DNA of 64,000 bases from Hyphomicrobiales bacterium (GTDB lineage Bacteria > Pseudomonadota > Alphaproteobacteria > Rhizobiales > Devosiaceae). The stretch lies in the NCBI GenBank assembly GCA_027487555.1, contig JAIYDI010000018.1, positions 124,001 to 188,000 of the forward strand, in the 5' to 3' direction. The notes below the pieces were generated by a model. That model made no database searches. It was not told the DNA's origin and worked only from the letters and a program-made list of their open reading frames with translations. Of this stretch, positions 20,425-57,286 are shown in pieces. How positions within the stretch are numbered: the stretch's first letter is position 1; every line of letters begins with the position of its first letter. The position numbers were made by a program, and so were the translations under genes.

Positions 20425-20661
20425 CTCAACTCCCTCTCCCGTTCACGGGAGAGGGTGGCGCGTAGCGCCGGGTGAGGGGGGCCGCTTGCGCTAAACTCCT
20501 TCCGGCGTTGCAGGATTCTCCGCAAGGTGCACCCCCCACCCGCCCTGCGGGCTCGATGCCATTCGGCCACAGGCCTCATGGCCTTCTCGGGGAAATCGCG
20601 CCACTGGCGCGATTTCTAGTCCCTCGAAGTCCCCCGCAAGCAGGGGAGGGGATCCCGACTG
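20425..20661. repeat. composite head-to-head palindromic repeat, locus 2
   Basis: Left unit CCCTCTCCCGTTCACGGGAGAGGGTGGCGCGTAGCGCCGGGTGAGGGG inverted; right unit CACCCCCCACCCGCCCTGCGGGC...GAAATCGCG-CCACTGG-CGCGATTTC (20592-20616)...GGGGATCCCGACTG. Confidence 0.85.
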
Positions 20662-20712
20662 CGACTTCTCTTCGCTCTCGCGCAAACCGGAGAGGGAAGA
20701 AAGAGCGGCATC

Positions 20713-21894
20713 TCACCCGTTGTCCTGCAATTCCCGCAGCGCCTTGAGCCGGTCGGAAACCGGGCTCTGTGGCCGCGGATCGGGGCCCGGCGGTCCGCCC
20801 GTCGGCTCCATCGGGTCGACGAAGCGCTGAACGCGCTCGAACAGCGTGCCGTCGAGGGCAGCGAGGCCCTGGCCATCGAGAGCGAGCACGATGCGGCTCA
20901 CGTCGGTGGCGATGTCGTTGAGGCGCTCGCGCAGGTGCGATTGCTCCAGACGCTCGGAATCCCAATCGGCCATGATGGTCGATTCGACACTTGCCACCTT
21001 GCCGCGCAGCCTTTCCATCTCGTCTTCAAGCGTCAGCTTGTCGGCCAGCAGCATGTCGCGCTCGGCCTCGGTGCCGACGATGAGCCGCGAGGTCTCCTCG
21101 AGAATGGTGGAGACGCGGGTTTCGGCATCGGCGATCCGCGCCTCTGCATCGACCAGATCGGCCTCGGCTTCCGCCGAGCGATCGGCGCGGTCGGCTAGCT
21201 GGGTACGGGCGATGACGGCCGATTCGCGCAGGGACGCCTGGCTGCGATCGGCAAATTCGAGTTGCGCGAGGAGGTTGCGGTTCTGCGCCTCAAGGAAATC
21301 CGAGCGCTTCTTTTCAAGTTCATAATGCTCAAGCACGAGTTGCACGTCGCGCAGATATTCGCCGGAGAGCGGCCGACCATTGAACGCGGGCGCATTGGGC
21401 ACGATGACTGTGCCCGGGCGGCTGGCGAGGCTGTCGCGCAGGGCCTCGATCTGGTTTTCCTTCTCGGCAAAGTCGCGCTCGCGCATCCTGAGCTTCTGCG
21501 CGAGGTCGGCGCCCTCCTTCTCGAGCTCAAGCACCCGCTTCCGCGCCGCGGCCTCGCGCTCCTCGAGCTCGCGAACGATCTGCAGGTGCGTGTCGCGCTC
21601 GGTCTTGATGGAGCCGAGTTCGGTCTTGCGGCGTGAGACATCGCGCAACTGGTCGGCAAGCCGGCGGCGCAGGGCCTCGACAGTCATCTCCAGCCGACGC
21701 GTGGACAGAGCGAACTCGGCGCGGAGCTGATCCTTGTCGGCGCGGAACTCGGCCATCGTCATGGGCGTTGCCGCCTCGATGCGCTTCTTGGTCAGGCGCA
21801 CAGCCCGCTGCCACACGGCGGGGATGATGATGAGCGCCACAAGCGCCGCAGAGAGCAGGCCAAGCGCGAAATACATAATGTTTTCAAGCATCAT
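20713..21894 (-). CDS. membrane-anchored coiled-coil protein of unknown function
   Basis: N-terminal TM MMLENIMYFALGLLSAALVALIIIPAVW then an extended charged heptad-rich region (TKKRIEAATPMTMAEFRADKDQLRAEFAL...). Confidence 0.75.
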   Translation of the reverse strand: MMLENIMYFALGLLSAALVALIIIPAVWQRAVRLTKKRIEAATPMTMAEFRADKDQLRAEFALSTRRLEMTVEALRRRLADQLRDVSRRKTELGSIKTERDTHLQIVRELEEREAAARKRVLELEKEGADLAQKLRMRERDFAEKENQIEALRDSLASRPGTVIVPNAPAFNGRPLSGEYLRDVQLVLEHYELEKKRSDFLEAQNRNLLAQLEFADRSQASLRESAVIARTQLADRADRSAEAEADLVDAEARIADAETRVSTILEETSRLIVGTEAERDMLLADKLTLEDEMERLRGKVASVESTIMADWDSERLEQSHLRERLNDIATDVSRIVLALDGQGLAALDGTLFERVQRFVDPMEPTGGPPGPDPRPQSPVSDRLKALRELQDNG

Positions 21895-21947
21895 GGCGCG
21901 ATACTCCCCAGACCCGACGATACGCCCGGGCCCCCGACTGACCAAAC

Positions 21948-22053
21948 TCTAGATCATTTCTTGTTTCATCTGAAACGCTGAAATGATCGATGTCGCTGTT
22001 TCGCCGCGCTTACGAAGCGGAAAACCGTTGCCACTCTTCCCTTAAGCGCTGCA
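21948..22053. repeat. intergenic palindromic mosaic element, copy 2 (RIME-like)
   Basis: TCTAGATCATTTCTTGTTTCATCTGAAACGCTGAAATGATCGA...CGCGCTTACGAAGCGGAAAACCGTTGCC...AAGCGCTGCAG. Confidence 0.65.
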
Positions 22054-22134
22054 GCCTAAGCAAAGAACGGGGTCACGCAAGGCGCAACCCCGATCTCAAG
22101 ACATGGGTAATTGGCGTCTGCGCGGCGTGCGTCG

Positions 22135-22731
22135 TCAGAACGGGTTCCAGGTCGGTTCCTGGGTGAACTTCAGGTAGCCGACATTGAGCCCAAGTCGTGC
22201 GCCTACGCCCGAGCGGATGGGCACGATGACGACGTCGCCATACTTGATGACCGTCATACCGAGGCCGCCCACCACATAGGCGGAACCATCGACGCCGGGA
22301 TAGCGGCCGAAAATGTCGGATACGGCGGAGAGGTTGTAGACCAGCATCATGACCTTGGAGCCATCCCCGCCGAAATCGAGACCCACTGTCGGGCCTTGCC
22401 AGTAGATGGGGTATTCGCCCTGGTTGCGGGTGTACATGCTGCCTTCGCCATAGCGGGCACCCGCGAATATGGCGCCGCCAGCCTCGGTGCCGAGCACATA
22501 GGCGTTGGGCAGGCCGAACTGGCTGACGGTGCGCTCGACCAGCGAGGCAAGGCCCTGCGCCACGGAGCCGAAGAAGGCGCTGCCGGTGTCGACGAGTTCC
22601 TCACCGGAATAGGTGTCGCTGAGCGAGCCATTGCTGGATTGCGCGTAACTCATGGTGGGCGCAACCGCCAGTACCGCAGCGGTTGAAAGCAGGAACAGCG
22701 CGAGAATGACGTAGACGAGGCGGCTGACCAT
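22135..22731 (-). CDS. DUF1134 (SYLF-like) exported protein
   Basis: YSGEELVDTGSAFFGSVAQGLASLVERTVSQFGLPNAYVLGTEAGGAIFAGARYGEGSMYTRNQG...TVGLDFGGDGSKVMMLVYNL. Confidence 0.88.
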   Translation of the reverse strand: MVSRLVYVILALFLLSTAAVLAVAPTMSYAQSSNGSLSDTYSGEELVDTGSAFFGSVAQGLASLVERTVSQFGLPNAYVLGTEAGGAIFAGARYGEGSMYTRNQGEYPIYWQGPTVGLDFGGDGSKVMMLVYNLSAVSDIFGRYPGVDGSAYVVGGLGMTVIKYGDVVIVPIRSGVGARLGLNVGYLKFTQEPTWNPF

Positions 22732-22858
22732 CAAGTTTTCTCCGGCTTTTGACCCAGTGGGCGTCGATTGCATTTACACGGCGCTTACCGCGGACACGGT
22801 AACCTGTGCACAGGGACGAAGCCCACCTTGGCCAAGATAGCTCCCCAACACGGCGATC

Positions 22859-23389
22859 ATGCGGCAAAAGCGTAAACAAATCTTAACCATAACCGGACTT
22901 CTGCTGGTCCTCGGTGCCATGGGGCTACCGATGGGCTCGGCACGGGCGGAAGCACTGGTGCAATCGGTGGTGACCGATCCGCTGACCGGTGTTGCGCTCA
23001 ATGGCTTCGACCCCGTGAGCTACTTCATCGGCGCTTCCCCGATGATGGGACTGGCAGACTACACCTACACCTTTGCGGGCGTGCCCTGGTACTTTGCCTC
23101 GGCCGCAAACCGCGACGTATTCATGCGGCACCCGGACGTCTATGCGCCGCAATTCGGCGGGCACTGCACTACTGCGCTGGCGCGCGGCTATCTCTCCGAT
23201 GGCAATCCGCAGCTCTATGCGGTGGAGGGGATGAAGCTCTATCTGTTCTACTCCATTGCCAACCGCGATGCGTTCTTTGCGGCCGATACGGCATCGGTGA
23301 AGACAGCAAGCGCCACCTGGGCAAGGATGCAGAAATCCATCGCCGGCCCACAGGCGCCAATCGCGCCAACGGTGGCAAGCGCCGACTGA
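22859..23389 (+). CDS. exported YHS-domain-like protein
   Basis: Signal sequence; LNGFDPVSYFIGASPMMGLADYTYTFAGVPWYFASAANRDVFMRHPDVYAPQFGGHC. Confidence 0.8.
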   Translation: MRQKRKQILTITGLLLVLGAMGLPMGSARAEALVQSVVTDPLTGVALNGFDPVSYFIGASPMMGLADYTYTFAGVPWYFASAANRDVFMRHPDVYAPQFGGHCTTALARGYLSDGNPQLYAVEGMKLYLFYSIANRDAFFAADTASVKTASATWARMQKSIAGPQAPIAPTVASAD

Positions 23390-23466
23390 TGCTCGGCTGT
23401 CGCCTGCCTTACCGATGATCTAATGTCGGGATTGATTGATTCGACCCCTCTGAGGAGCCCCCGTAC

Positions 23467-24141
23467 ATGCCCGAGATCATCGAGCTCCAGGCCACCGACC
23501 TCGCAGCGATGCTGTGTTCGCGCGTGTGCCATGACCTGATCAACCCGGTCGGGGCCATCGGCAATGGTCTGGAAGTGCTCGGCGACCCGACGCAGGCCGC
23601 CATGTCGGATGGCGCGCAGGAGCTGATCGCCAATTCGGCAAAGCAGGCACGCGCCAAGCTGGAGTTCGCGCGCCTCGCCTATGGCGCGAGTTCGACGGCA
23701 GGGACCGATATCGACACGCGCGAATGCGAGCGCGTCGCGCGCATCCTGTTCGATATCGAAAAGGCGGATCTCGACTGGCAGGTGCCGCTGATCCTGCTGC
23801 CTAAGCACAAGGCCAAGCTCTTGATGAACATGCTGCTGATCGCGGCGACATCGGTGCCGCGCGGCGGGCTTGTGACGGTGAAAGTCGAAGGCGCGGCCGG
23901 GGCCGAAGTGTTCACGTTCACGTCGAAATCGGACCCCGAAAAGCGGCAGAAGACGCTGATGCCGTCGGGTGCCGAGGGCTTGCTGTCGGGCGCGCCGGAA
24001 GGCGGTGTCGATGCCCGGGGGATCCAGCCGTTCTATACCGGCATCCTCGCGCGGATGACCAAGATGGACATCAAGATCGGCATCGAGAACGAGCAGTTCC
24101 TGTTCACCGCCACCCCGCAGGCCGAAGCCGCGGCGGCGTGA
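23467..24141 (+). CDS. chpT: histidine phosphotransferase ChpT
   Basis: LAAMLCSRVCHDLINPVGAIGNGLEVL dimerisation/H-box with degenerate HATPase-like C-terminus; linked to ctrA. Confidence 0.9.
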   Translation: MPEIIELQATDLAAMLCSRVCHDLINPVGAIGNGLEVLGDPTQAAMSDGAQELIANSAKQARAKLEFARLAYGASSTAGTDIDTRECERVARILFDIEKADLDWQVPLILLPKHKAKLLMNMLLIAATSVPRGGLVTVKVEGAAGAEVFTFTSKSDPEKRQKTLMPSGAEGLLSGAPEGGVDARGIQPFYTGILARMTKMDIKIGIENEQFLFTATPQAEAAAA

Positions 24142-24299
24142 TTTCCAGCCGAGGTGTAAAGGCCCGCTAACCATTCGCAAGGGTTTTGCGGGATAAACTG
24201 GCAGCGCGTCTCGTTCGACTTGACGCGCTTTCGGTTGAAAACCGGGCGCGGCTTGCGGCAAGGCTGTTCCAGCGTCCCCTCGGCACGGAGAAGCGCCAG

Positions 24300-24671
24300 A
24301 TGAAATCCTGCCTCGTGGTCGACGATTCGAGCGTCGTGCGGAAGGTCGCGCGCCGCATCATCGAGGATCTCGACTATATCGTCGACGAGGCCGAGGATGG
24401 GCAGGAAGCCTTCGACAAATGCCGGCAGGAAATGCCCGACGCCATTCTGCTCGACTGGCAGATGCCGGTGATGACCGGCCTCGAATTCCTGAAACTGCTG
24501 CGCGGCTATGTCGGCGGCGCCGCGCCGCGCGTGGTCTACATGGTCACCGAATATGACGTGGGGCAGATCGCCCTGGCGCTGAAGGCCGGGGCCAATGATT
24601 TCATGATGAAGCCGTTTGATCGCGACGTGCTGGAAGCGAAGTTCAACGAAGCCGCGATGGCGGGTGCCTAG
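24300..24671 (+). CDS. single-domain response regulator
   Basis: CLVVDDSSVVRKVARRIIEDLDYIVDEAEDGQEA...DAILLDWQMPVMTGLEFL...FMMKPFDRDVLEAKF; ATG at 24300. Confidence 0.9.
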   Translation: MKSCLVVDDSSVVRKVARRIIEDLDYIVDEAEDGQEAFDKCRQEMPDAILLDWQMPVMTGLEFLKLLRGYVGGAAPRVVYMVTEYDVGQIALALKAGANDFMMKPFDRDVLEAKFNEAAMAGA

Positions 24672-24800
24672 GTCACGTCGCGATCTATTTCGGTTGTCGC
24701 GCCGCCGAAGCGGAAAAGCCTTGCAACTTTTCCTGGCGACGCTCCGGGGCGACGTGCTGGACGGGAAGTTCGACGAAGCCGCGATGGCGGGTGCTTAGGT
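24622..24800. repeat. 52-bp direct repeat of the response-regulator 3' end flanking a partial RIME-like element
   Basis: 24622-24673 and 24749-24800 differ at 4 of 52 positions by eye; between them GTCGCGCCGCCGAAGCGGAAAAGCCTTGCAACTTTTCCTGGCG. Confidence 0.85.
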
Positions 24801-24837
24801 TTCCCCCCGCCGATAGTGCAACGCCTGCGGTTGCATC

Positions 24838-24872
24838 TCAGGATGGGCCCCGGCCTTCGCCGGGGTGACCCG
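24838..24872. repeat. CCCGGC-hairpin intergenic repeat, copy 1
   Basis: CTCAGGATGGGCCCCGGCCTTCGCCGGGGTGACCCGG; related to 28965. Confidence 0.7.
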
Positions 24873-24898
24873 GTGGGGGGCGCTTCCGATGCCAGGCT

Positions 24899-25360
24899 TC
24901 AGCCCAGAAGCTTTTCCATGAAGATCGAGAGCGGATCGGGCGAATAGGGCGCAAACGCGTCGCGCTCGACATAACCCTGCCGGCGATAGAGCCCGAGCGC
25001 CTCGGTATTGTGGATGCCGGTTTCGAGCCGGATGACCGAGACGCCATTGTCTGAAGCGTGGTTTTCGACATGGGCGAGGAGGCGCTTCGAGAGCCCCTGT
25101 CCGCGCGCTGCAGGTACAACCCACATGCGCTTGATTTCCGCCCAGCCGTCGTTGAGCACGATGGCGCCGGTGCCAATGGCCGTGCCCGACGCGTCGCGCG
25201 CGACGAGGAACAGCACGTTCGGCGCGCGCAGCGCATCAAGCGGCAGGTAGTGATTGCTCTCGGCCGGATAGAGCGCGGCGCCATAGGCCTCGCCATCCTG
25301 AAGCAGTGCGAGCACATCGGGGGTGCCGGGATCTTCGGGGGAGATGGTGATCTGGGTCAT
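24899..25360 (-). CDS. GNAT family N-acetyltransferase
   Basis: IKRMWVVPAARGQGLSKRLLAHVENHASDNGVSVIRLETGIHNTEALGLYRRQGY. Confidence 0.88.
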   Translation of the reverse strand: MTQITISPEDPGTPDVLALLQDGEAYGAALYPAESNHYLPLDALRAPNVLFLVARDASGTAIGTGAIVLNDGWAEIKRMWVVPAARGQGLSKRLLAHVENHASDNGVSVIRLETGIHNTEALGLYRRQGYVERDAFAPYSPDPLSIFMEKLLG

Positions 25361-25373
25361 GGGGCCGTGGGAG

Positions 25374-25405
25374 GTAGAAAGTAGGAAGTAGAAAGTAGAA
25401 AGTAG
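25374..25405. repeat. heptamer tandem array (4.5 units)
   Basis: gtagaaa gtaggaa gtagaaa gtagaaa gtag, ~10 bp downstream of a minus-strand stop codon. Confidence 0.85.
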
Positions 25406-25414
25406 CGCGTTTCG

Positions 25415-25930
25415 TCAGGGCTGCCAGCCGGGACGGAAGAGCGCCATCTGGTGCACATCGAGATAGGTGCCGCCGACGCGGGCGCCGAGGCGCTTGGTGC
25501 CTTCGAGGGTGAAGCCGTGGCGTTCGTAGAGCGCGCGGGCCTTGGGGTTCGACGCGTAGACTTCGAGTTCGATGCGCTGGAAATCGCTCTGCCAGGCGGC
25601 AGCAATGGTTGCCGCGATCAGACGCGTGCCGATGCCGCGCCCACGGTGGGATGCGATGACGCCCATGCCGAGCGTGCCGACATGATCGAACACGATGCTG
25701 CCGGAATGGCACACGTCGCACCAGCCGACGATCTGCCCCGCGCTTTCGGCCACCAGTTGCACATTGGCGCCGGTGATATTGCCGACAATGAAACTCGCAA
25801 CGTTCGGCAGCGGCGCGGCGCGCTGGGTCGAAATGTAGATGCCTTCCTGAGCGACGCTATCGAGCGCGGCATGGAAGCCGGGAATATCGGCATAGGCGAT
25901 GGGACGAATGGCGATGTCGGGCAGCGACAT
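25415..25930 (-). CDS. GNAT family N-acetyltransferase
   Basis: GTLGMGVIASHRGRGIGTRLIAATIAAAWQSDFQRIELEVYASNPKARALYERHGFTLEG. Confidence 0.88.
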   Translation of the reverse strand: MSLPDIAIRPIAYADIPGFHAALDSVAQEGIYISTQRAAPLPNVASFIVGNITGANVQLVAESAGQIVGWCDVCHSGSIVFDHVGTLGMGVIASHRGRGIGTRLIAATIAAAWQSDFQRIELEVYASNPKARALYERHGFTLEGTKRLGARVGGTYLDVHQMALFRPGWQP

Positions 25931-25957
25931 TGTTGCAGCTCATTGCGTAAAGACGAC

Positions 25958-25993
25958 AAAGCCCCCGCGGGGATCGCGCAGGGGCTTTGCAGA
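25958..25993 (-). terminator. intrinsic terminator downstream of ctrA
   Basis: Minus strand GCAAAGCCCCTGCGCGATCCCCGCGGGGGCTTTG followed by TCGTCTTT. Confidence 0.7.
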
Positions 25994-26016
25994 CAGAGGC
26001 TGAGCGAAGCGTCGGC

Positions 26017-26727
26017 TTAGGCGACGCTCGACTCGGCGAAGCTCTCGTTCTCGTCGGGCTCGCGCAGCACATAGCCGCGGCCCCAGACGGTTTCGATATA
26101 GTTCTTGCCACCCGTGGCCACCGACAGCTTCTTGCGCAGCTTGCAGATGAACACGTCGATGATCTTCAATTCGGGCTCGTCCATGCCGCCATAGAGATGG
26201 TTGAGGAACATCTCCTTGGTAAGGGTGGTGCCCTTGCGGAGCGAAAGCAGCTCCAGCATCTGGTATTCCTTGCCCGTCAGGTGCACGCGGGCCGCCTGGA
26301 CTTCGACAGTCTTGGTGTCGAGATTGACGGTCAGGTCGCCAGTCTGGATGACGGACTGCGCATGGCCCTTGGACCGGCGCACGATGGCGTGGATGCGGGC
26401 GACCAGCTCGTCCTTGTGGAAGGGCTTGGTCATGTAATCGTCGGCACCAAAGCCGAGGCCGCGCACCTTGTCCTCAATGCCGGCAAGGCCGGAGAGGATG
26501 AGGATGGGCGTCTGCACCTTGGCGACGCGCAGCGTCCGCAGCACCTCGTAACCCGACATGTCGGGGAGGTTCAGGTCCAGAAGGATGATGTCGTAGTCAT
26601 AGAGTTTGCCGAGGTCGACGCCTTCCTCACCGAGGTCGGTGGTATAGACGTTGAAGCTCTCCGACTTGAGCATGAGCTCGATGCTCTGCGCCGTAGCGCT
26701 GTCGTCCTCGATCAAGAGTACACGCAT
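26017..26727 (-). CDS. ctrA: cell-cycle master response regulator CtrA
   Basis: [67 protein letters not shown]...[13 protein letters not shown]. Confidence 0.96.
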
Positions 26728-26809
26728 GCCGATCCCCTTAAAGCGTTCCTCGCTGGAACACGGCGCAAGGCTTTGACCTGGCCCGCCGCCGCTGACCCGT
26801 ACTGGATAT

Positions 26810-27099
26810 GACTCAAAGCTAAGCGCAATTAGTTAACAAAGTTTAATTCTGATCCGCAAGATGCAAAGCTATTTGCGTTAGCAATAGGTTAACGTGTTGA
26901 AAACATTGAATAAACCGGGAAAAACGGACTTAAGAAACTAGGTTAAGAAAGCCTTGCAAACGACTCGTCTGATTCAAGGATCGCGCGGTTTTGGCACACA
27001 GTGCCAAGGGCTTGCGGCCCGGCGCAGCGACGCAGAAGGCTGATCCAATGATTGCGGCACGCTGCTTAACGATCGGTTACCTTCTTTCACAGTCGATTC
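26810..27099. promoter_or_regulatory. ctrA-fliI intergenic region with GANTC sites and TTAA-rich CtrA-like motifs
   Basis: GANTC at 26810, 26962, 26971, 27095; TTAG-N7-TTAA at 26878-26892; TTAA-N7-TTAC at 27066-27080. Confidence 0.55.
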
Positions 27100-27117
27100 G
27101 CGCGCAGAATTCAGGCC

Positions 27118-28446
27118 ATGCAGTCCCTAATCTCCGCCATTGAGGCCATTGACGACGTCGAGGTGTACGGGCGCGTGCGCACGGTGCAGGGTCTGCTCGT
27201 CGAAGTGGTCGGCCCGGTGCGGGAACTGAAGGTGGGTGGCCGCGTCGCCATCGAGACAACCGGCGGTGGCACGCTGGGCGCGGAAATCATCGGATTTTCC
27301 GAAGGCCGGGCGATGTGCCTGCCGTTCGGGCCGCTCTCGGGCGTGCGGCTCGGCTGCCGCGCCGTGTTCAAATCGAATGAAGGCGCGGTGCGCCCATCGG
27401 ATAGCTGGCTGGGCCGAGTGATCAATGCCGAAGCCGAGCCGATTGACGGGCTGGGGCCACTGGCGCAAGGCGCGGACCCTTATCCGCTCAGGCAGCAGCC
27501 GCTGCCCGCGCATGAGCGGGCGCGGGTCGGCGCGCCGATCGACCTGGGCGTCCGCACGCTCAATACCTTTACCACCATGTGCGACGGGCAGCGCATGGGC
27601 ATCTTCGCGGGCTCGGGTGTCGGCAAGTCGGTGCTGATGTCGATGCTGGCGCGCAATGCCGAAGTGGATGTCGCGGTGATCGGGCTGATCGGCGAGCGGG
27701 GCCGCGAGGTGCAGGAATTCGTCACTGAATATCTGGGTCCCGCCGGGCTCGAGCGTGCGATCGTGGTGGTGGCCACCTCGGACGAGGCGGCCTTGATGCG
27801 ACGGCAGGCGGCATATCTGACGCTGACGCTCAGCGAATATTTCCGCGACCAGGGTAAGCGCGTGCTGTGCATGATGGACAGTCTCACCCGCTTTGCCATG
27901 GCGCAGCGCGAGATCGGGCTCGCCATTGGAGAGCCGCCAACAGCCAAGGGTTACCCGCCGACAGTGTTCACGGAATTGCCGCGATTGCTCGAACGGGCCG
28001 GGCCCGGGCTGGTCAACTCGGGCTCCATTACCGGACTGTTTACCGTTTTGGTGGAAGGTGACGATCACAATGAGCCCATCGCGGACGCCGTGCGCGGCAT
28101 TCTCGACGGGCACATCGTGATGGAGCGATCGATTGCCGAGCGGGGGCGCTATCCTGCCGTCAATGTGCTCAGGTCCATCTCGCGCACCATGCCGGGTTGC
28201 GTGCCGACGAATTACCGGCCCCTGCTCCAGAAGGCGCGGGAACTGATGTCGACTTATGCCGACATGGAGGAGCTGATCCGGCTGGGGGCTTACCGGAAGG
28301 GATCGGATCCGGGCGTGGACCGCGCCATAGCGATCAACCCGGCGCTGGAGGCGTTTCTGAGCCAGCAGCGGGAAGAGACGACGACAATTGCCGACGGCTA
28401 CAAGTTGCTGGCGGGAATTGTGGAGAAGGCGGGCGCCGCGCCATGA
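27118..28446 (+). CDS. fliI: flagellum-specific ATP synthase FliI
   Basis: [42 protein letters not shown]; flagellar context. Confidence 0.95.
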
Positions 28447-28501
28447 GGGAGTGCGCGCGCCGCAGTGACGTGAATGGCTTGGTTAGTAAGGAGTGCAAGT
28501 C

Positions 28502-28915: not shown

Positions 28916-28964
28916 GGGCGTAGGTCCTCGGCGGAAAACGTCAATTTATACAATCACATCGATT

Positions 28965-29000
28965 TCAGGATGGATCCCGGCCTCCGCCGGGATGACATCG
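28965..29000. repeat. CCCGGC-hairpin intergenic repeat, copy 2
   Basis: TTCAGGATGGATCCCGGCCTCCGCCGGGATGACATCGG at a convergent junction. Confidence 0.7.
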
Positions 29001-29006
29001 GAGCTT

Positions 29007-30285: not shown

Positions 30286-30359
30286 CTGTTAAAGTGAGCG
30301 GCAGCAGAGCTCTCGGCGTCGTGCCGGTCAAATCCGGACAACTGCCATTGGGATGCTTC

Positions 30360-31484: not shown

Positions 31485-31610
31485 CGGTGACCCCAGATGG
31501 ACGCGAGACCAGATAATGCCGCGGAGCCCAGGGTGTTCCACTGGCATGGCAGCTTTTCCTTAGCAGAGTGCGGCTAGTGTCGGTGCGACATTCGAGAGCG
31601 GGGCAGGGCG

Positions 31611-36320: not shown

Positions 36321-36438
36321 GTAGTCGGCAATCGGCCAAGAAGGGCAATCGGCAATCGGCAATCGGCAATCGGAAAGGGGACGAAAGCAGAGGGGGCAGG
36401 AGGCGATTCGACTGCCGATTGCCGATTGCCGATTGCCG
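36321..36438. repeat. inverted pair of heptamer arrays (gcaatcg)n / (cgattgc)n
   Basis: gcaatcg x4 at 36345-36372 and cgattgc x3 at 36416-36436, potential >20-bp stem between fliN stop and flbD start. Confidence 0.9.
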
Positions 36439-47903: not shown

Positions 47904-50008
47904 GTGACAAGATGAACGACGACAAGCTCAAGCTGCTCGGGACTTCCAACCTGCCCACTCCGCGCGCGGAGGCAAAGAAGCTCGCCATGGTGGCGGCGCT
48001 CGCCGCATTCGACGCGGAACAGGCAAACAAACACGCACCCCAAGGAAGCGCCCTCGGTGCCCGTCTCAGGTCCATCACCGCGATGATGCGAGGGACCTTC
48101 GAGATGAACACGCGACTGAGTTATGGGTTCGGCACTGCCGCGATTGCCCTGCTGCTGCTGCCGCTCGGCTACCAGCTTTATACGACGACGGCGATCTCGC
48201 CTGTTGGCCGGACGGAAGTGCCGGTGTTGGCGGCGAAGCCGGCCGACGCGCCTGTGACGACTGAGTTGAAGCAGGACAGCGCCGCGGATGCGGGTGCGGC
48301 ACGCGCCGAAGGTGGTGTGGTGGCCGATGCGGAAGTCGCCTCGCAGGTGGCGAACTCGACCGCCGCCGTTGCACCCAGCACGGTCGCCGCGACACCGCAA
48401 ATAGCCCGCAAGATGGCTGCCCCCGAGGTGATGGCCGAGATGGCGCCGGTGGCCGAGGGCGAGGCGGACATTGCCGTGGGCATGGCCGCGCCTATGGCAG
48501 CATTGGCGTCGCCCGCCGGCGGGTTGCCGCAGGTGGCGGCGCCTTCGGGCGACCAGTTCCAGAGCTTTGCCGAAAGCCCGGTCAAGCTTGTCGCGGCCGA
48601 GCCGGTTTCGACCTTCTCGATCGATGTCGATACGGCGAGCTATGCCTATACGCGCCAGATGCTGAGCGAAGGCTATGTGCCCGAGCCCGACGCGGTGCGG
48701 ATCGAGGAACTGATCAACTATTTCAGCTACGACTACCCGGCCGCGACCGACAAGGCGAAGCCGTTTCAGCCGAGCGTGATGGTCTATCCCGCCCCCTGGA
48801 ATGCCGAGCACCAGATCGTGCAGATCGGCATCAAGGGCTATGTGCCGCCGGTGACGGAGCACAAGGCGGCGAACCTCGTGTTCCTCATCGATACGTCAGG
48901 CTCGATGGATGAGCCCAACAAGCTGCCATTGCTGAAGCGGGCCTTCGCGCTGCTCGTGAACCAGCTGAGCGAGAACGACACGATCTCCATTGTCGCCTAT
49001 GCCGGTTCGGCGGGCGTTGTGCTGGAGCCGACCAGGGCGACGGAAAAGGGCAAGATCCTCGCGGCGCTGGACAATCTGTCGGCTGGCGGCTCGACTGCGG
49101 GCGCCGCGGGCATCGAGCTCGCCTATCGGCTGGCCGACGCGCACAAGATCGAGGGCGGAAACAACCGTGTGATCCTCGCGACCGATGGCGACTTCAATGT
49201 CGGTATCGAGGACCCGGAAGAGCTGAAGCGCTTCATCGGCAAGAAACGTGACACTGGCGTGTTCCTCTCGGTGCTGGGCTTCGGCGAGGGCAATTACGGC
49301 GACGACACAGCACAGGCCCTGGCGCAGAACGGCAATGGCAATGCCAGCTATATCGACAGCTTCAAGGAAGCGCAGAAGGTGCTGGTGGAAGATGCGGGCG
49401 GCACGCTCGAAACCATCGCCAAGGACGTGAAGATCCAGGTGGAGTTCAACCCTCTGCTGGTGAGTGAGTACCGGCTGATCGGCTACGAGACCCGGGCGCT
49501 CAACCGCGAGGACTTCAACAACGACAAGGTCGATGCGGGCGATGTGGGGGCGGGAACAAGCGTGACCGCGCTTTACGAGATCACGCCCGTGGGGGCGAAA
49601 TCGCAGCAGATCGACCCACTGCGCTATGGCGATATGCCGCCGCAGCCTGCCGGGCTTGCCGGCCCCGATGCCGAGCTCGGCTTTTTGAAGCTGCGCTACA
49701 AGCTGCCTGACGGTGCGACGAGCCAGTTGATCGAGGTACCGATCAAGCACGACAGCGCGGCCACGAGCCTCGACTCGGCACCCGACGACGCGCGCTTCGC
49801 CGCTGCGGTGGCCGCTTTCGGGCAGAAACTCAAGGGCTCCGCTTACGGCGAGATGAGCTGGGACGCGATCCGGGCTCTGGCCGCTGGCGCAAAGGGCAAG
49901 GACGAAGCCGGGCACCGGGCCGAGTTTGTGCAACTGGTGGGCCTTGCGGGCCAGATCGTCGGGACCGGACCGGTCTGCGCGAGCGATAGCGAGACCAACT
50001 GCCGGTAG
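47900..50008 (+). CDS. single-pass membrane protein with extracytoplasmic VWA domain (YfbK-like), candidate anti-sigma factor
   Basis: ~75-aa cytoplasmic N-terminus, TM (YGFGTAAIALLLLPLGYQLY), FSIDVDTASYAYTRQML, LVFLIDTSGSMDEPNKLPLLK MIDAS; GTG start overlaps the sigma stop (GTGA). Confidence 0.88.
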   Translation: MSDKMNDDKLKLLGTSNLPTPRAEAKKLAMVAALAAFDAEQANKHAPQGSALGARLRSITAMMRGTFEMNTRLSYGFGTAAIALLLLPLGYQLYTTTAISPVGRTEVPVLAAKPADAPVTTELKQDSAADAGAARAEGGVVADAEVASQVANSTAAVAPSTVAATPQIARKMAAPEVMAEMAPVAEGEADIAVGMAAPMAALASPAGGLPQVAAPSGDQFQSFAESPVKLVAAEPVSTFSIDVDTASYAYTRQMLSEGYVPEPDAVRIEELINYFSYDYPAATDKAKPFQPSVMVYPAPWNAEHQIVQIGIKGYVPPVTEHKAANLVFLIDTSGSMDEPNKLPLLKRAFALLVNQLSENDTISIVAYAGSAGVVLEPTRATEKGKILAALDNLSAGGSTAGAAGIELAYRLADAHKIEGGNNRVILATDGDFNVGIEDPEELKRFIGKKRDTGVFLSVLGFGEGNYGDDTAQALAQNGNGNASYIDSFKEAQKVLVEDAGGTLETIAKDVKIQVEFNPLLVSEYRLIGYETRALNREDFNNDKVDAGDVGAGTSVTALYEITPVGAKSQQIDPLRYGDMPPQPAGLAGPDAELGFLKLRYKLPDGATSQLIEVPIKHDSAATSLDSAPDDARFAAAVAAFGQKLKGSAYGEMSWDAIRALAAGAKGKDEAGHRAEFVQLVGLAGQIVGTGPVCASDSETNCR

Positions 50009-50084
50009 GCGCTTTTTGTCGGGATCGACAGGCGCAAGCCGCCTGTCCCGGAAGTAGCGCCGGTACCGCCCCCCACGGCGCTAT

Positions 50085-50118
50085 GAGCGCGGTTCCCCTT
50101 GCTGGGGGAGCCGCGCTC
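50085..50118. terminator. strong hairpin, likely bidirectional terminator
   Basis: GAGCGCGGTTCCCC-TTGCT-GGGGGAGCCGCGCTC at a convergent junction. Confidence 0.6.
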
Positions 50119-50127
50119 TCACCATTT

Positions 50128-51078
50128 TCAGAGCGGCTTGAGGCCAGCCTCGATCGCGGCGCGGCGGGGTTCGAGGAAGGGGGGAAGCGCCAGGGCTTCT
50201 CCCAGCGTTTCCAGCGGTTCGTCAGCGGTGAAGCCGGGGCCGTCGGTGGCGATTTCGAAAAGGATACCGTTGGGCTCGCGGAAATAGAGCGAGGTGAAGT
50301 AGTAGCGCTCGACCTCGCCCGAGGAGCGCAGCCCAAAGCTCGTGACGCGGCGTACCCAGTGGTCGAACTCGGCCTTGTCGGGCGTGCGGAACGCGACGTG
50401 GTGCACGCCGCCGGCGCCCGGCCTGGCCTGCGGCAGATCGGGGTTCACCTCGACATGCAGTTCGGCCGCGGCGCCCCCTGCACCCATTTCGAAGACATGG
50501 ATGGCGCCGCTGCGCTCACGCGCCGGGTAGGTGCGGACCTCGCGCATGTTCATCACCTGGGAGAGGACAGGCGCTGTGCGGGCAAGGTCGGGCACGGACA
50601 TGGTGATGGGGCCGAGGCCGATGATCTGGTGCTCGGCCGGCACGGGACTCTTCTCCCACGGATGGCCGGTCTCGGCCTTGGGGTCGGCGAGGAGGCGGAA
50701 GCGCTGCCCCTCGAAATCCTCGAAGTCCAGCGACAGGTGACCGGCGCGCTCCTTGATATTGCCGGACTGGTAGCCCTTTGCCGCAAGGTGTTCCTTCCAC
50801 CACGCGAGGGTTTCGGCGCTGCGGACGCGGAGACCTGTGCGGGTGATGGAATGCGTGCCGCGCTTTTCAGGCGCGGTCGGCCAATCGAAGAAGGTAAGAT
50901 CGGCGCCTGGCGTCGCGACGCCGTCGCCATAGAAGAGGTGATAGGCGGTGACGTCGTCCTGGTTCACCGTCTTCTTGATGAGCCGCAGCCCAAGAACCTG
51001 AGTGTAGAATTCGAGGTTGCGCGGGGCCTGCGCGGTGACCGCGGTCAAGTGGTGAATGCCCGTCAGTTCGAGTGCCAT
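50128..51078 (-). CDS. ring-cleaving dioxygenase, VOC superfamily
   Basis: [63 protein letters not shown]. Confidence 0.88.
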
Positions 51079-51287
51079 GTTCGGCTCCGTTCGTTGCTCG
51101 CGTGTCAGGTTGGACTGCTTACGCGGGTTTCAAACAACGGACCAGTGCAAGGTCCGTTCGACAAATCCGAACAATCGGGCGCTCCAGTGCGGAACAAACG
51201 CTTCAGCGCGACTACCACGGCGGCGCCTCGCGCCGCCGTCGAGACCGTTGGTCTGAGGCGTCAATCCTGCGTCGACGCCAATATGCG

Positions 51288-51737
51288 TTACTGCGTCAAG
51301 ACGGCCAGTGCATGCCCGGCGGCGTCGTTGATCGAGTCGACATTGAAGAGACGCAGGCCGAGCGCACTGTAATCGACGCGATAGAAGCCGTCCGCCGCGA
51401 CGGAAACGGCATGCCTCCACCTGGGGCTCGCGAGCACGTCCTGCGCCATGACGCCGGTGAATACACGATCATCGCCGACATAACGGAAGGTGTAGATCGG
51501 CAGGCCGTTCGGCAAGGCGCCAACCCTTTCGATATCCTGCTTCAAGCGGCGATCAGAGGGAGCGGGCGGCGCAGCCTCCTCATCCAGGCGATCGGCAAGC
51601 AGTACGCCGCCGGCAATGACTGCTGCACCCGCTACACAGACGCCCGGATTCCTGCCGCAATAATCTATAGGCGACGTTGCGCAGCCGCTCATCACAAGCG
51701 GCAAAACCCACAATGCGGCAATAGACCAAAAGCGCAT
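51288..51737 (-). CDS. lipoprotein with S74-like (tail-spike chaperone) C-terminal domain
   Basis: Lipobox LVMSGCATS; SDRRLKQDIERVGALPNGLPIYTFRYVGDDRVFTGVMAQDVL. Confidence 0.75.
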   Translation of the reverse strand: MRFWSIAALWVLPLVMSGCATSPIDYCGRNPGVCVAGAAVIAGGVLLADRLDEEAAPPAPSDRRLKQDIERVGALPNGLPIYTFRYVGDDRVFTGVMAQDVLASPRWRHAVSVAADGFYRVDYSALGLRLFNVDSINDAAGHALAVLTQ

Positions 51738-52041
51738 GCAAACCCCCAGGGTGCTACAATGAGTTTCTCTCTGACCACGCGCAAATGCATCGCGGCTGCT
51801 CGCTACAGGCTCTGATCCATACCACAGATTCTTATGAATTTTAACAGGACTTAAACACAAACGCGCCGCTTTCTTCGGCGTGGTCTGCAATGGCCGTCGC
51901 GCTACACTTTAGCTGGCACCTGCGCGGCGACGCGCATGGCAACTTCAATAATTTGGGCGTCGTGCCGACAGTGACAGCATCGCTGAGTGCGTGCGCATGC
52001 CCGTGGTTTGACCTGTTCTATATCGCCGAACAGCCGCTGGA

Positions 52042-53769
52042 TCAGTTGCGGAAGAGGCGTTGCAAGGCGACTTCGACTGCGGCGACACGCTTCGGATCGG
52101 CGCCCCTGAACGCTGTTTCGACCCGGGCGAGGGCGGCCTCGAGGCTCTGGATATGCTCGCCGCGCAGAAGGCGCAGCGCGGCGAACACTGCCGGGCCATC
52201 GCATAGCGGTGGCTCCAGGCTCCACTCGGCGCTGGTTTCGCCATCGGGGCTGGGGGCAAGTCCGCAGCGTCGATAGGGCGGCGCATCGCGCCAGAACAGC
52301 GTGAGGATATCGCTCAGCGCCGATATGTCGTCGGCGAAGTAGGAGTGGGCCAGCATATCCTCGCCCAGCACCGACATATCGATGGAATCGACGAAAGGCG
52401 GGATGAAGACGCCTTCGGAGCCTTCACCGGCCCGCGGCGCGCCGCCATTGACGGAGTTGGATACCTTGAGGGCAAAGTCGTTCTTCGAGGTGTACAGCGT
52501 CAGCCGCTCGGCAGCGGGAGAGATGGTCTCCATCATCTTGGCGAAGAGGCCAGCGTCGATATCGGGGGCGGTAAACAGCACCTGGTCGAAGGCAGGGCGC
52601 TCGCCGGCATGGCGAAGGGCATAGAGTTCGAGCGCCTCGGTGAGGGCGCGGTTGCCCATGGAATGCGCGATGAGGTGAACGCGTTTCGCGCCGGTGCGCT
52701 GCACTACATCCTCGAGGAAATCGGAGAGATAGCGGCCCGAGAGCTGCACCACGGCGCCATCGGACATATAGGCCAGCAGCGAGCCCTGCGAGGGCCACGA
52801 GAACAGGATCGGCAGCCCGTCGAAATTCATGTCGTAGGCCATCTGCGCTGTGCGGCGGGCAGCGTCGGCAAACGTGACATTGAAGCCGTGAACGAAAACG
52901 AAAGCCTCGTTGGAGCCGGTCTTCTTCAGCTGCAGCTGCATGTCGGCAAGGACATCGGGCTTGGCCAGCGGCTGCACGGTGGTGAGAATGAGGTGGCGAT
53001 CGGGGTTCTCGACCACGTCGAGCGTGAAGATCGAGGGCGCTTCGAGGGCGCCGGCGCGGTGCGTCTTGGGGATGCTGACTTCGGCGATGCCGTAGTCCAT
53101 CGGCCCACGATCATAGCCGTAGATCTCGGTCGGCCGGATGGATTTGGTGCGGGCGCGGTTGGTGGCGTAGTAGATGCGGACCAGTGAGTAGCCCTCGTCA
53201 CCCTGGCCCTTCGGAGGTTTCGGGCCCTTGGCTGCGGTGAGGGTGCGCAGCGCCGCGCGCTCGGCTTCGAGGGTAGATTTCTGGCGCTGGTTGAGTTCGG
53301 CGCCGAGCGCATCGAGGCGCGCATTGAGCGGGTGGCCGTCGAGCTTGGCGCCCGCAAGCACATCGACGCGGATGGCGGCCAGAAAGGCGGAATAGGCGGC
53401 GGTCGGATTGGAGGCAAGCGCCTCCATGTCGCCGGCTTTCTCCCAGGAGGTGGCGACTTCCTGCGCGCGCGGGCCCAACCGCTCGGCAAGCGCCGTCGCG
53501 AGACGTCGCCAGGATTCGGCGGCAAGGCCGAAATCCGCGTTGGCCGCATGCAGTTCCGCGAGGCGCCGCAACAGTGCTTCGCGCAGTTCGGGCACGTCGG
53601 CTGTCACCAGTTCCCGCTCGACGGCCGCGATAGCGAAAGAGGGCTGCCCCGCCGCGAGCGCCGAGGTGATTTCGCTATCGAGCGCGAGGTTGACCTCGGC
53701 GCGCGCGGTCACGGTGCCGAGCAGGACGGCAAGGCTCAACGCGCCCAGAAGGCGGAACAGGCGAAACAC
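52042..53769 (-). CDS. exported alpha/beta hydrolase (DUF900-type)
   Basis: FVFVHGFNVTFADAARRTAQMAYDMNFDGLPILFSWPSQG...HLIAHSMGNRALTEAL; GTG at 53769 opens a signal peptide; the track N-terminal extension translates a repeat. Confidence 0.85.
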   Translation of the reverse strand: MFRLFRLLGALSLAVLLGTVTARAEVNLALDSEITSALAAGQPSFAIAAVERELVTADVPELREALLRRLAELHAANADFGLAAESWRRLATALAERLGPRAQEVATSWEKAGDMEALASNPTAAYSAFLAAIRVDVLAGAKLDGHPLNARLDALGAELNQRQKSTLEAERAALRTLTAAKGPKPPKGQGDEGYSLVRIYYATNRARTKSIRPTEIYGYDRGPMDYGIAEVSIPKTHRAGALEAPSIFTLDVVENPDRHLILTTVQPLAKPDVLADMQLQLKKTGSNEAFVFVHGFNVTFADAARRTAQMAYDMNFDGLPILFSWPSQGSLLAYMSDGAVVQLSGRYLSDFLEDVVQRTGAKRVHLIAHSMGNRALTEALELYALRHAGERPAFDQVLFTAPDIDAGLFAKMMETISPAAERLTLYTSKNDFALKVSNSVNGGAPRAGEGSEGVFIPPFVDSIDMSVLGEDMLAHSYFADDISALSDILTLFWRDAPPYRRCGLAPSPDGETSAEWSLEPPLCDGPAVFAALRLLRGEHIQSLEAALARVETAFRGADPKRVAAVEVALQRLFRN

Positions 53770-53884
53770 GGCAATTCTCCTAGCAGCTGCCTGAGGGATT
53801 GCAGCTTTGCGCGCAATCTTCGGCAAAGTTCGGGCCTTTGCCAAGGGGGGAGGGCGCTTATGGCCAGCGCGCAGGGAAGGAAAA

Positions 53885-53912
53885 GCAAAACCGCCCGGCG
53901 AGGGGCGGTTTC
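53885..53912 (-). terminator. intrinsic terminator downstream of efp
   Basis: Minus strand AAACCGCCCCTCGCCGGGCGGTTTTGCTTTTCC. Confidence 0.7.
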
Positions 53913-53989
53913 GATAAGCTTGCTGTGCTGGTGGCCGGGGCATCGGGCACGCCTCTTGACCATAGGTCTCGGGGCCTGACCTGCTAAAA

Positions 53990-54079
53990 TCAGTCCACCG
54001 GACTTCAGGCATCGAGCATGCCCCTCGAGCGTAGCTATCGAGGTCTTCGGACCTGAAATCAGTCCACTGGACTGATTTC
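53990..54079. repeat. palindromic repeat with 9-7-9 element
   Basis: GAAATCAGT-CCACTGG-ACTGATTTC at 54055-54079 plus a diverged partial copy AAAATCAGT-CCACCGG at ~53995. Confidence 0.85.
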
Positions 54080-54104
54080 GCCAACGCGATCCGTCGGCCG
54101 GTCC

Positions 54105-54677
54105 TCAGTCTTTAGCGCGTTCGACGTAGGAGCCGTCTTCGGTCATGACCACAACGCGGGTGCCGACACCGATATGCGGCGGGACCATGGTCTTGACGCC
54201 GTTGTTGAGGGTCGCCGGCTTGAAGGATGACGACGCGGTCTGCCCCTTCACCACCGGTTCGGTCTCGACGATTTCGAGCGTGACGCGCTGCGGCAATTCG
54301 ATGGCGATGGCGATGCCCTCGAAGGTCTTCAAATAGCAGAGCATGCCATCGGTGAGGTAGGCACCGAGATCGCCCACGACGTCCTTGCTGACCGCGATCT
54401 GCTCGAAAGTCGCCGGGTCCATGAAGTGGAAGCCCTCGTCGTCATTGTAGAGGTACTGGTACTCGCGCTCGTCGACATCGGCCTTTTCGACCATTTCGAC
54501 GGTGCGCCAGCTGGCCGCGACCTTCACGCCATCGGAGATGCGGCGCATGTCGACCTTGGTCACCGAGTTGCCCTTGCCGGGGTGAATGTTCTCGGCGATG
54601 AGGACGATATAGAGCTTGCCGTCGTCGTGCTCGACGACATTGCCCTTGCGCAGGGACGAGGCGATGACCTTGACCAT
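54105..54677 (-). CDS. efp: elongation factor P
   Basis: [53 protein letters not shown]. Confidence 0.95.
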
Positions 54678-54855
54678 AGTTCTTCCTTGTTCAACGGGTG
54701 GCGACGGCCTAGAAGCGGCGACAAGGCCGGGCCGGACGCGTGGACTGTGCTATCTGGGTGCCGCCCGATAGCGCAAAACGGCGCGTTCCGCCAGCCCTCT
54801 GCCCAATCCCGTTTGCTGCTTCATGCCGCGATTGCCACAGGACTTCTGAAGCCAA

Positions 54856-55926
54856 GTGCCGAGCCCCTCGTCCAACCCGCCCGTTTCGCCCTGGTGGAGC
54901 CCGGACCGGCACCAGGATCGGCTGCCCATGCTCCGCGCGCGGGCGCGGATTGAACTTGCCGTGCGGAGCTATTTTTCCGCCGCGGATTTCCTGATGGTCG
55001 ACCCGCCGGGCCTGCAGAGAAGCCCCGGCAACGAGACGCACCTGCACGCCTTTTCGACCGAGATGATCGGCAATGACGGGGCGGGTACCATGATGTATCT
55101 CCACACCTCGCCGGAATTTTCGATGAAGAAGCTCTTGGCGGCCGGCGAGCGGCGGATCGCCAGCCTCGGGCATGTGTGGCGCAATCGGGAACGGACCGCG
55201 CTGCACCATCCGGAATTCACCATGGCGGAATGGTATCGCGCCGGCGAAAGCTATGACGCGGTGATCGCGGATTGCATCGCGCTCTGCCGGATTGCGGCCG
55301 AGCAGGCGGGCATCACCGAGCTGCGGTTTCGCGACAAGATGGCGGACCCGTTTGCCGCGCCCGAGCGGATTTCGGTGCGCGACGCATTCGTCGCCCATGC
55401 CGGCATCGACCTGTTCGAGACGATGGACGCACAGGGCGAAACCGATGCCATGGCGCTCGCCGACTACATGGCGGCCGCGGGCATGGAGGTGCCGCGCGAC
55501 CCGACATGGTCGCATCTTTTCTCGCGCATCTTGGTGGAGAAGGTCGAGCCGCAGCTGGGGCAGGGGCGGCTGACGGTGCTGGACCGGTACCCCGCGGCCG
55601 AGGCGGCCTTGGCGCGGCGCTGTGCCGATGATGCGCGAGTGTCTGAGCGGTTCGAGCTTTATGGGGCGGGCGTGGAGCTTGCCAACGGTTTTGGCGAGTT
55701 GACCGATGCTGATGAGCAGCGGCGGCGGTTCGAAGTCGAGATGGCGGAGAAAGCCCGACTCTATGGCGAGACCTATCCGCTCGACGAGGACCTGCTCGCG
55801 GCGCTGCCGCTGATGCCGGAGACGTCGGGCGTGGCGCTGGGTTTCGATCGGCTGGTGATGCTGGCGGTCGGTGCGCGGCGGATCGAGGATGTGCTCTGGG
55901 TGCCGGTGGCAGGAGGCGCAGCATGA
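54856..55926 (+). CDS. epmA: EF-P lysine aminoacylase EpmA
   Basis: Class II LysRS-like: HLHAFSTEMIGNDGAGTMMYLHTSPEFSMKKLLAAGERRIASLGHVWRNRE; divergent from efp. Confidence 0.92.
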   Translation: MPSPSSNPPVSPWWSPDRHQDRLPMLRARARIELAVRSYFSAADFLMVDPPGLQRSPGNETHLHAFSTEMIGNDGAGTMMYLHTSPEFSMKKLLAAGERRIASLGHVWRNRERTALHHPEFTMAEWYRAGESYDAVIADCIALCRIAAEQAGITELRFRDKMADPFAAPERISVRDAFVAHAGIDLFETMDAQGETDAMALADYMAAAGMEVPRDPTWSHLFSRILVEKVEPQLGQGRLTVLDRYPAAEAALARRCADDARVSERFELYGAGVELANGFGELTDADEQRRRFEVEMAEKARLYGETYPLDEDLLAALPLMPETSGVALGFDRLVMLAVGARRIEDVLWVPVAGGAA

Positions 55927-56972
55927 AGCTCGACCGGACGTTGCGGACTGGCGCAGACCTGCGGGCGGCGGGGCTGATCGGGGATGATGCGGTTGCGGCA
56001 GCAGACGCGGTAGCGGAGCGCTATGCCGTGGCGGTGACCCCGACTGTCGCCGGGCTGATCGACCGCGACGACCCGAACGATCCGATCGTGCTGCAATATT
56101 TGCCCCGCATCAGCGAGTTGACGACGCTGCCCGAGGAGCGCGACGACCCGATCGGCGATCTGGCGCATTCGCCGGTCGAAGGCATCGTGCATCGCTATCC
56201 CGACCGCGTGCTGCTCAAGGCCGTGCATGTGTGCCCGGTCTATTGCCGCTTCTGCTTCCGCCGCGAAATGGTTGGGCCGGAGGGGCTCGGTACGCTCACG
56301 GCCGAGGCGCTCGACCGGGCGCTCGACTATATCGCCGGGCACAAGGACATCTGGGAAGTGATCCTCACCGGCGGCGATCCGCTGGTGCTGTCGGCGCGGC
56401 GGCTCGGCGCGATGATGGAGCGGCTGGCGCAGATTGCCCACGTGAAGGTGGTGCGCATCCATACGCGCGTGCCGGTCGCCGATCCGGACCGGGTGGATGC
56501 GGCGTTGCTTGCCGCGATCAAGGCCAGCGGCAAGACGACCTATCTTGCGGTGCATGCCAACCATCCGCGCGAGCTGTCGGGGGCGGGCGAAGCGGCGGTG
56601 CGCCGGATCGGCGCGGCGGGGATCGTGCTGCTCAGCCAATCCGTGCTGCTGCGCGGGGTGAATGACAGGGTCGAGGTGCTGGCCGACCTGATGCGGCGCT
56701 TCGTCGAGCTCGGGGTGCGGCCCTATTACCTGCATCACCCCGACCTTGCGCCGGGCACGGCGGAATTCCGCCTATCGATTGCCGAGGGGCAGGCGCTGGT
56801 GAAGGCGCTGCGCGGGCATGTGTCGGGGCTGTGCCAGCCGACCTATGTACTCGATATTCCCGGCGGGTTCGGCAAGGCGCCGATCGCAGAGGCGGTGGTG
56901 GCGCATGGCGAGGACGGGACGATGGTGACGGATTTCCGTGGCCGCACGCATGCTTATCCGCCGGAGGGGTAG
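55923..56972 (+). CDS. epmB: EF-P beta-lysylation protein EpmB (lysine 2,3-aminomutase family)
   Basis: Radical-SAM CPVYCRFCFRREMVG; VILTGGDPLVLS; overlaps epmA by 4 nt. Confidence 0.93.
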   Translation: MKLDRTLRTGADLRAAGLIGDDAVAAADAVAERYAVAVTPTVAGLIDRDDPNDPIVLQYLPRISELTTLPEERDDPIGDLAHSPVEGIVHRYPDRVLLKAVHVCPVYCRFCFRREMVGPEGLGTLTAEALDRALDYIAGHKDIWEVILTGGDPLVLSARRLGAMMERLAQIAHVKVVRIHTRVPVADPDRVDAALLAAIKASGKTTYLAVHANHPRELSGAGEAAVRRIGAAGIVLLSQSVLLRGVNDRVEVLADLMRRFVELGVRPYYLHHPDLAPGTAEFRLSIAEGQALVKALRGHVSGLCQPTYVLDIPGGFGKAPIAEAVVAHGEDGTMVTDFRGRTHAYPPEG

Positions 56973-56994
56973 GGGGTCATCGGCGCTGAAGCCT

Positions 56995-57286
56995 CAGTCG
57001 GCGTCACTCTCCCTCTTGAGGGACTTCGAGCCGGTCGCGCAGCGATCGGTCGCTCCGGTGGAGCGACCGAAGGCGATGAAGGTGCCCGGAGGGCGGATGA
57101 GGGGTGCACCTTGCGCTGAAGTTATAACTTTTTCAATAGCTTAGAGCAAACGGCACCCCCCACCCGGCGCTCCGCGCCTGACGCCATTCGGCCATAGGCC
57201 TCACGGCCTTCTCGGGGCGATTGCTCCACTGGAGCAATCGCTGATCCCTCGAAGTCCCCCGTAAACGGTGGAGAGACGCCGACTGA
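56995..57286. repeat. composite head-to-head palindromic repeat, locus 3
   Basis: Terminal arms CAGTCGGCGTCACTCTCCC / GGAGAGACGCCGACTG; 9-7-9 palindromes TCGGTCGCT-CCGGTGG-AGCGACCGA (57046-57070) and GCGATTGCT-CCACTGG-AGCAATCGC (57217-57241). Confidence 0.88.

Follow-up and report, generated by a model that had tools for sequence, protein, structure and literature searches.

A 64,000-nucleotide stretch of the genome of a Hyphomicrobiales bacterium of the Devosiaceae (GCA_027487555.1, contig JAIYDI010000018.1, positions 124,001 to 188,000; hereafter the window), from a draft assembly of 4.5 Mb and 52 contigs, carries the gene efp and a family of dispersed 25-nt palindromes with 9-nt arms and a 7-nt centre. 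The four perfect 9-7-9 palindromes reported in the original prediction were found at 20592-20616, 54055-54079, 57217-57241 and 57046-57070, and the fifth copy, with arms pairing at 7 of 9 positions, at 17783-17807. The CCGGTGG copy at 57046 does not have a separate centre, being the motif CCACCGG on the minus strand. At the 31 CCACYGG/CCRGTGG sites of the window, 4 perfect 9-bp arms were observed and 0.0002 were expected from the window base composition; in 848 kb of the same genome the numbers were 6 and 0.003. In this unbiased 848-kb sample, CCACTGG and CCACCGG were the two commonest cores among perfect 9-7-9 palindromes.

The palindromes form the middle hairpin (H1) of a folded repeat of about 85 nt, which also comprises two further hairpins and a closing stem. 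The unit N9-CCACTGG-N9' proposed earlier is therefore a real hairpin but not a free-standing one. Alignment of the flanks of 46 copies from the same genome identified several covarying helices, of which the palindrome is one. Their order is H0, closing-stem arm, H1 (N9-CCACYGG-N9'), a small hairpin H2 and closing-stem arm. With CCACYGG read forward, H0 (GCCAT-tc-GRGC-AYA-GCYC-tc-ATGGC) is followed by CTTC and a 3-nt arm, then by T and H1; H1 is followed in most types by H2, then by the sequence pairing with the 3-nt arm, and finally by GAAG. The H2 variants were TCGCC-TGC-GGCGA and TTCC-TTC-GGAA, and the GGG/CCC type has no H2. The outer part of the closing stem is CTTC/GAAG or GTTC/GAAC, while the inner part is GCC/GGC, GGC/GCC, GGG/CCC or others. 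Outside the Devosiaceae the element takes the form GCCCTTCGCTTNGGGCTCAGGGC - GTTC - 5-nt arm - T - H1 - T - H2 - ACC - arm - TCACC. Folding of single copies yielded the three-hairpin structure for most types (z -3.4 to -6.5). The constancy claimed for the centre holds in part, as CCACTGG and CCACCGG are common. However, some copies of one family (f23, loci L403, L404, L405, L406 and L409) have another H1 apical loop (AGCCA-AGCAAT-TGGCT or CCC-ATTTCG-GGG) and keep the rest of the element, so CCACYGG is not universal.

Three covariance models were used, R1 for the 25-nt hairpin, R2 of 87 nt and R3, a broader model. The copies and related features of the window are as follows.

17757..17831, plus strand: element with H2 (TTCC-TTC-GGAA), its H1 (17783-17807) pairing at 7 of 9 positions; R2 28.5 bits, E 0.004
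20440..20660, plus strand: larger mosaic repeat (about 220 bp) carrying the element; 66 blast matches in the genome
17635-17860 and 57004-57290: mosaics similar to 20440..20660
20558..20631, plus strand: complete element of the type without H2, with H0 20558-20582, CTTC 20583-20586, inner closing arm GGG, H1 20592-20616, CCC and GAAG 20626-20629; R2 58.5 bits, E 9.8e-10, and fold of a sister copy
20592..20616, plus strand: H1 hairpin GAAATCGCG-CCACTGG-CGCGATTTC; from the sequence, R1 37.7 bits
53951..53995, plus strand: degenerate copy in tandem with the efp-side element and upstream of it; R2 25.3 bits, 66-nt direct repeat
54020..54110, plus strand: element at the efp 3' end, H1 54055-54079 GAAATCAGT-CCACTGG-ACTGATTTC; R2 31.0 bits, orthologous copies in other Devosia
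54105..54677, minus strand: efp (elongation factor P; Pfam EFP_N, EFP and Elong-fact-P_C), host gene of the orthologous junction
57022..57094, minus strand: element with H1 57046-57070, TCGGTCGCT-CCACCGG-AGCGACCGA on the minus strand; R2 42.9 bits
57183..57256, plus strand: complete element, H1 57217-57241 GCGATTGCT-CCACTGG-AGCAATCGC; R2 56.2 bits

The stop codon of efp (54105-54107) sits at the closing-stem end of the element at 54020..54110. The elongation factor P encoded in the window is 87-89% identical to its counterparts in Devosia sp. Root413D1, Devosia insulae and others, which places the host in Devosia or near it (Rhizobiales). A lysine 2,3-aminomutase-like radical SAM gene, possibly EpmB, is located near efp at 55923-56972 on the plus strand.

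The claim that the fold rather than the primary sequence is conserved was upheld. Among 124 distinct copies from the loci read, 49 different perfect arms were present. Standard pairs made up 97.5% of the pair cells in 72 copies from other Devosiaceae genomes (at most 46% with slid partners), two-sided changes occurred at 23 of 32 pairs, and covariation was 0.268 versus 0.069 after shuffling. A diverse set of 69 copies gave 95.3% paired cells, two-sided changes at 24 of 32 pairs and covariation of 0.542 versus 0.129. Covariation was seen in all stems of the element. Both alignments were fitted to a model with the same structure and lean towards that structure. The efp junction is a cleaner test. 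The element follows directly after the efp stop codon, in the same orientation, in many Devosia species, and its arms vary by species (AAAATCGCT, AAAATCAGT, CAAATCCCT, AAAAACGCG and CAAAACTCC). The check for compensatory changes at syntenic junctions, suggested at the outset, was run here: in 19 Devosia copies, 92.3% of the cells were paired and 77 cells were two-sided, compared with a maximum of 33 in 500 shuffles. After efp, some Devosia species have H0 remnants only and others have nothing, indicating that the element is dispensable there.

Structured RNAs tolerate G.U pairs on the RNA strand. Among 1983 pair cells of the element, 22 were G.U (1.1%) and 19 were A.C, a count that includes recently spread copies with little time to gain wobbles, whereas seven tRNAs from the same genomes had 14 G.U among 156 pairs (9.0%). 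G.U and A.C were likewise about equal at the old efp junction. Pairing is thus near-strict Watson-Crick and without strand preference; of the two marks of a conserved structured RNA, covariation of base pairs was found and tolerance of G.U on one strand was not. The choice between an RNA hairpin and a DNA structure had been left undecided in the original prediction. Since G.U is rare and no commoner than A.C, a DNA-level fold is favoured over a conserved RNA. The strict pairing points to DNA, or to a process copying one arm onto the other. Such clear two-sided covariation and so little wobble are combined in few repeat families.

The positions of the copies relative to genes, as placed by a simple codon-usage gene caller, were biased towards gene 3' ends. 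Convergent gaps held 59 copies, co-directional gaps 50 and divergent gaps 11 (p 4e-9 for convergent versus divergent). The GAAG end was nearer to the facing stop codon in all 19 of 19 convergent gaps of the own genome. In other genomes the orientation was even, both in convergent gaps (21 vs 19) and in co-directional gaps (19 vs 16). In a distinct class of copies, the end of the element coincides with the stop codon (positions -7 to -2). The far closing arm of these stop-anchored copies in Devosiaceae was often complementary to the end of the host gene, the arm/gene-end pairs being CTTGTAGCC/GG[CTA]CAAG, CTTGAGCCC/GGGC[TCA]AG, CTGA/[TCA]G and CTAG/[CTA]G (brackets mark the reverse complement of the stop codon), and tandem units carry the same gene-matched arm. 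The efp end GAC-TGA is identical in genomes with and without the element; therefore, the efp-side target is native and it is the arm of the element that does the matching.

Outside the Devosiaceae, about 20 of 38 copies are placed so that the TCA of TCACC is the host stop codon in reverse complement. The host genes of these copies resemble, by eye from the C-terminal sequence, lepA, smpB, degP, moaA, icd, cox3 and rlmE. Seventeen of 20 such host proteins end in glycine, compared with 53 of 592 genes of the own genome, and the genes mostly end Gly-TGA (17/20). In one family, GGG-TGA closes lepA in all 5 genomes that carry the element or a remnant of it, and in 1 of 8 genomes that lack both (p 0.005). 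The GGGTGA at host gene ends may be the target or may have been brought by the element.

The own genome contains about 55 copies, and near-identical ones are numerous; R2 gave 55 matches at E <= 0.01 and R1 gave 82 at E <= 10, the latter counting some sites on both strands. R2 matches were found in 17 of 19 same-genus genomes and R3 matches in 67 of 398 genomes of the order, from at least eleven families. In a phylum sample of 299 genomes, R3 detected two further alphaproteobacterial families and gave no match outside Alphaproteobacteria. A first blastn query against plasmids, the consensus element, gave no match; with queries from other families, stretches similar to the element were detected in Rhizobium and Aminobacter plasmids. 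Four copies, all in the same orientation, are packed into about 600 bases of RHS/YD-repeat-like coding sequence in the own genome (contig C7, 83523-84129). Near-identical copies, tandem units sharing a gene-matched arm and copies inside the RHS-like gene imply that the element spreads. On contigs C16, C18, C33, C36 and C39, the 220-bp mosaic repeat occurs no more than about 300 bases from a contig end and probably broke the assembly there; the element-carrying repeat can thus break short-read assemblies.

Two other repeats occur in the window. GGCAATC-type 7-mers form an inverted array at 36344-36437, with arms that are 97-100% complementary and about 40 nt apart, and related sequence is located at 17518-17555. 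A 52-nt direct repeat (92%), with copies 127 nt apart, is located at 24622-24800 and resembles a duplicated gene tail.

Several known systems share features with the element. The attC sites of integrons likewise have a conserved fold and a free sequence. However, no integron integrase scored above the TIGR02249 cut-off in 13 same-genus genomes (0/21 genomes overall), the sub-threshold matches being of the kind seen in all control genomes, and no cassette arrays were seen. The RIME of rhizobia are intergenic mosaic repeats with palindromes. They are attributed to Osteras 1995 (cited in PMC2245857), and no convincing R1, R2 or R3 match was found in 150 kb of S. meliloti pSymB. In the copies read, no T-run directly followed H1 or the element as in rho-independent terminators; separate hairpins with T-runs occur further downstream of efp in several genomes. 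No Rfam family reached its gathering threshold at the elements, and none of 398 genomes scored above the cut-off of RF02604. The only Rfam match in the window was a thiamin pyrophosphate (TPP) riboswitch (16703-16802, minus strand, 61.2 bits), which adjoins a gene on the opposite strand (16829-17515) that resembles thiamin pyrophosphokinase.

A closer relative may be found in Brucella. Positions 27-69 of BASRCI153, a Brucella small RNA (sRNA) model, correspond to the right half of the GGG/CCC type (30.9 bits vs a cut-off of 137), and the model contains CGGG-GAAAUCAGU-CCACUGG-ACUGAUUUC-UGAUCCC. The palindromic Bru-RS1 and Bru-RS2 elements of this genus (Halling and Bricker, 1994), described as 103-106 bp long in PMC10800456 and as a family of 222 members in B. 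melitensis in PMC2267715, belong to the same order, have a similar length and are intergenic, with a conserved stem-loop. The descriptions of Bru-RS consulted mention neither a class-wide range nor stop-codon anchoring or covariation of the arms. Bru-RS1/2 may be a local branch of the element family, a lead that comes from comparing descriptions.

The likeness to repetitive extragenic palindromic (REP) sequences, noted earlier together with their mosaics (BIMEs), holds for dispersal and for placement at gene 3' ends. Like the element, REPs are small palindromes scattered over the genome, their stems change in a complementary way from one subfamily to another, they occur mostly downstream of genes and form dimers, and CGTC REPs are mainly alphaproteobacterial and without a dedicated transposase (PMC3733652). 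REPs of the GTAG and CGTC super-families are, however, single hairpins of 20-40 bp with a tag (PMC3733652), whereas the element has three hairpins, about 85 nt, a closing stem and neither tag. GTAG was not a conserved tag in the flanks of 46 own-genome and 38 other-family copies, and the element lacks the CGTC-REP features, namely a tag (CGTC, TGTC or CCTC), a stem of 8-9 bp that opens with AT pairs, a loop of 4-5 and a tail of CCA. Identity with either super-family was excluded by tag and architecture. The ends of IS200/IS605 and the substrates of TnpA-REP are folded single-stranded DNA hairpins with a guide of four nucleotides on the 5' side of the palindrome, which pairs with the site of cleavage or with the target (PMC8266576). 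The element resembles them in its hairpins and, in many Devosiaceae copies, in having a candidate guide at this place. It differs in that the genus has no Y1 transposase and in that the candidate guide is part of a continuous closing stem of up to 8-9 bp. Literature searches found no Devosia repeat and no description of the element as such in searchable sources. Dispersed palindromic repeats are already known; the anatomy, range and stop-codon anchoring of this one were not found described in the accessible literature.

These results tentatively suggest, with a little less than an even chance, that the copies are dispersed non-coding repeats of about 85 nt acting as REP-like folded single-stranded DNA, with guide/target pairing and a putative mobiliser. 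When single during replication or repair, in the manner of REP/IS200-type DNA, the strand would fold into H0 and then into the closing stem enclosing H1 and H2. Some enzyme would recognise the hairpins and their apical bases and join the element beside a short target. The 5' closing arm (CTTC, CTGA, CTTG or CTAG) would be the guide, and its target would lie on the opposite side (GAAG, TCAG, CAAG or CTAG). Insertions at gene ends would survive because the stop codon is kept, and in resident copies ongoing selection or repair acting on the DNA fold would preserve the palindromes. For IS200/IS605 and some REP transposases, the site is selected through pairing with a tetranucleotide guide beside a hairpin (PMC8266576). 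The closing arm in Devosiaceae appears to have the place and the complementarity of such a guide, and guide-like targeting is the leading, if unproven, mechanism.

Several points weigh against mobility by a folded, guided DNA. The RAYT/IS200-type transposase that the original prediction proposed to look for gave no PF01797 match in the own and 18 same-genus genomes, although control genomes responded; Y1/RAYT genes are scarce in Alphaproteobacteria (PMC6006769), consistent with their absence in the genus. Many Devosiaceae copies have guide-target complementarity, but the flanks GTTC and TCACC of other families are not complementary, and in those families a guide would have to pair by a different rule. 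Mobility by itself would let a copy decay; the fold of the efp copies has nevertheless persisted across genus-level divergence, and selection or homogenisation is needed on top of mobility. The tRNA control, finally, consists of seven tRNAs.

Three other explanations were weighed. The copies could be a cis-acting RNA element of mRNA 3' ends that begins at the stop codon on the gene strand, folds into H2, H1 and H0, protects the 3' end or binds a protein, and was spread by recombination and kept by selection on the RNA. This is doubtful but deserves serious weight. The placement at gene 3' ends with its spike of copies ending on the stop codon, the long-term compensatory change at efp, the strong predicted RNA folds and the match of half the element to BASRCI153 all fit it, whereas G.U pairs at the level of A.C and far below that of tRNAs, leaving neither strand with RNA-type wobble, do not. 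Nor do the even orientation in co-directional gaps of other genomes, the several copies inside the RHS-like gene and the lack of an element after efp in many Devosia.

Passive homogenisation would also account for strict Watson-Crick pairing without strand bias, for the freedom of the arms and for closing arms that repeat the end of the host gene. In this reading, one arm is rewritten from the other by quasi-palindrome correction, through template switching at replication forks, with neither selection nor an enzyme of its own. The reading fails on the wide conservation of loops and linkers (AYA triloop, CCACYGG, TNC) and on dispersal and stop-codon anchoring, and is improbable. Least probable, and hardly to be expected, is an ordinary REP family moved by RAYT. 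Short dispersed palindromes at gene 3' ends in dimers and clusters are what REPs look like (PMC3733652), but 17 of 19 same-genus genomes carry the element while PF01797 is absent and neither the GTAG nor the CGTC tag is present.

An extension of the folded-DNA reading, which we consider unlikely, is that of a class-wide, transposase-less, retargetable element. Its guide arm would be complementary, or become matched, to the last codons and the stop codon; it would land exactly at stops and could shape C-termini (Gly-TGA), with hairpin arms drifting in matched pairs. Covariation with so little wobble makes the distinction between an RNA-kept and a DNA-kept fold directly testable. The element family possibly includes repeats long known from Brucella. 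Stop-codon anchoring and the gene-matched arm suggest either programmable insertion that involves no known transposase or, in many Alphaproteobacteria, a new kind of element at mRNA ends.

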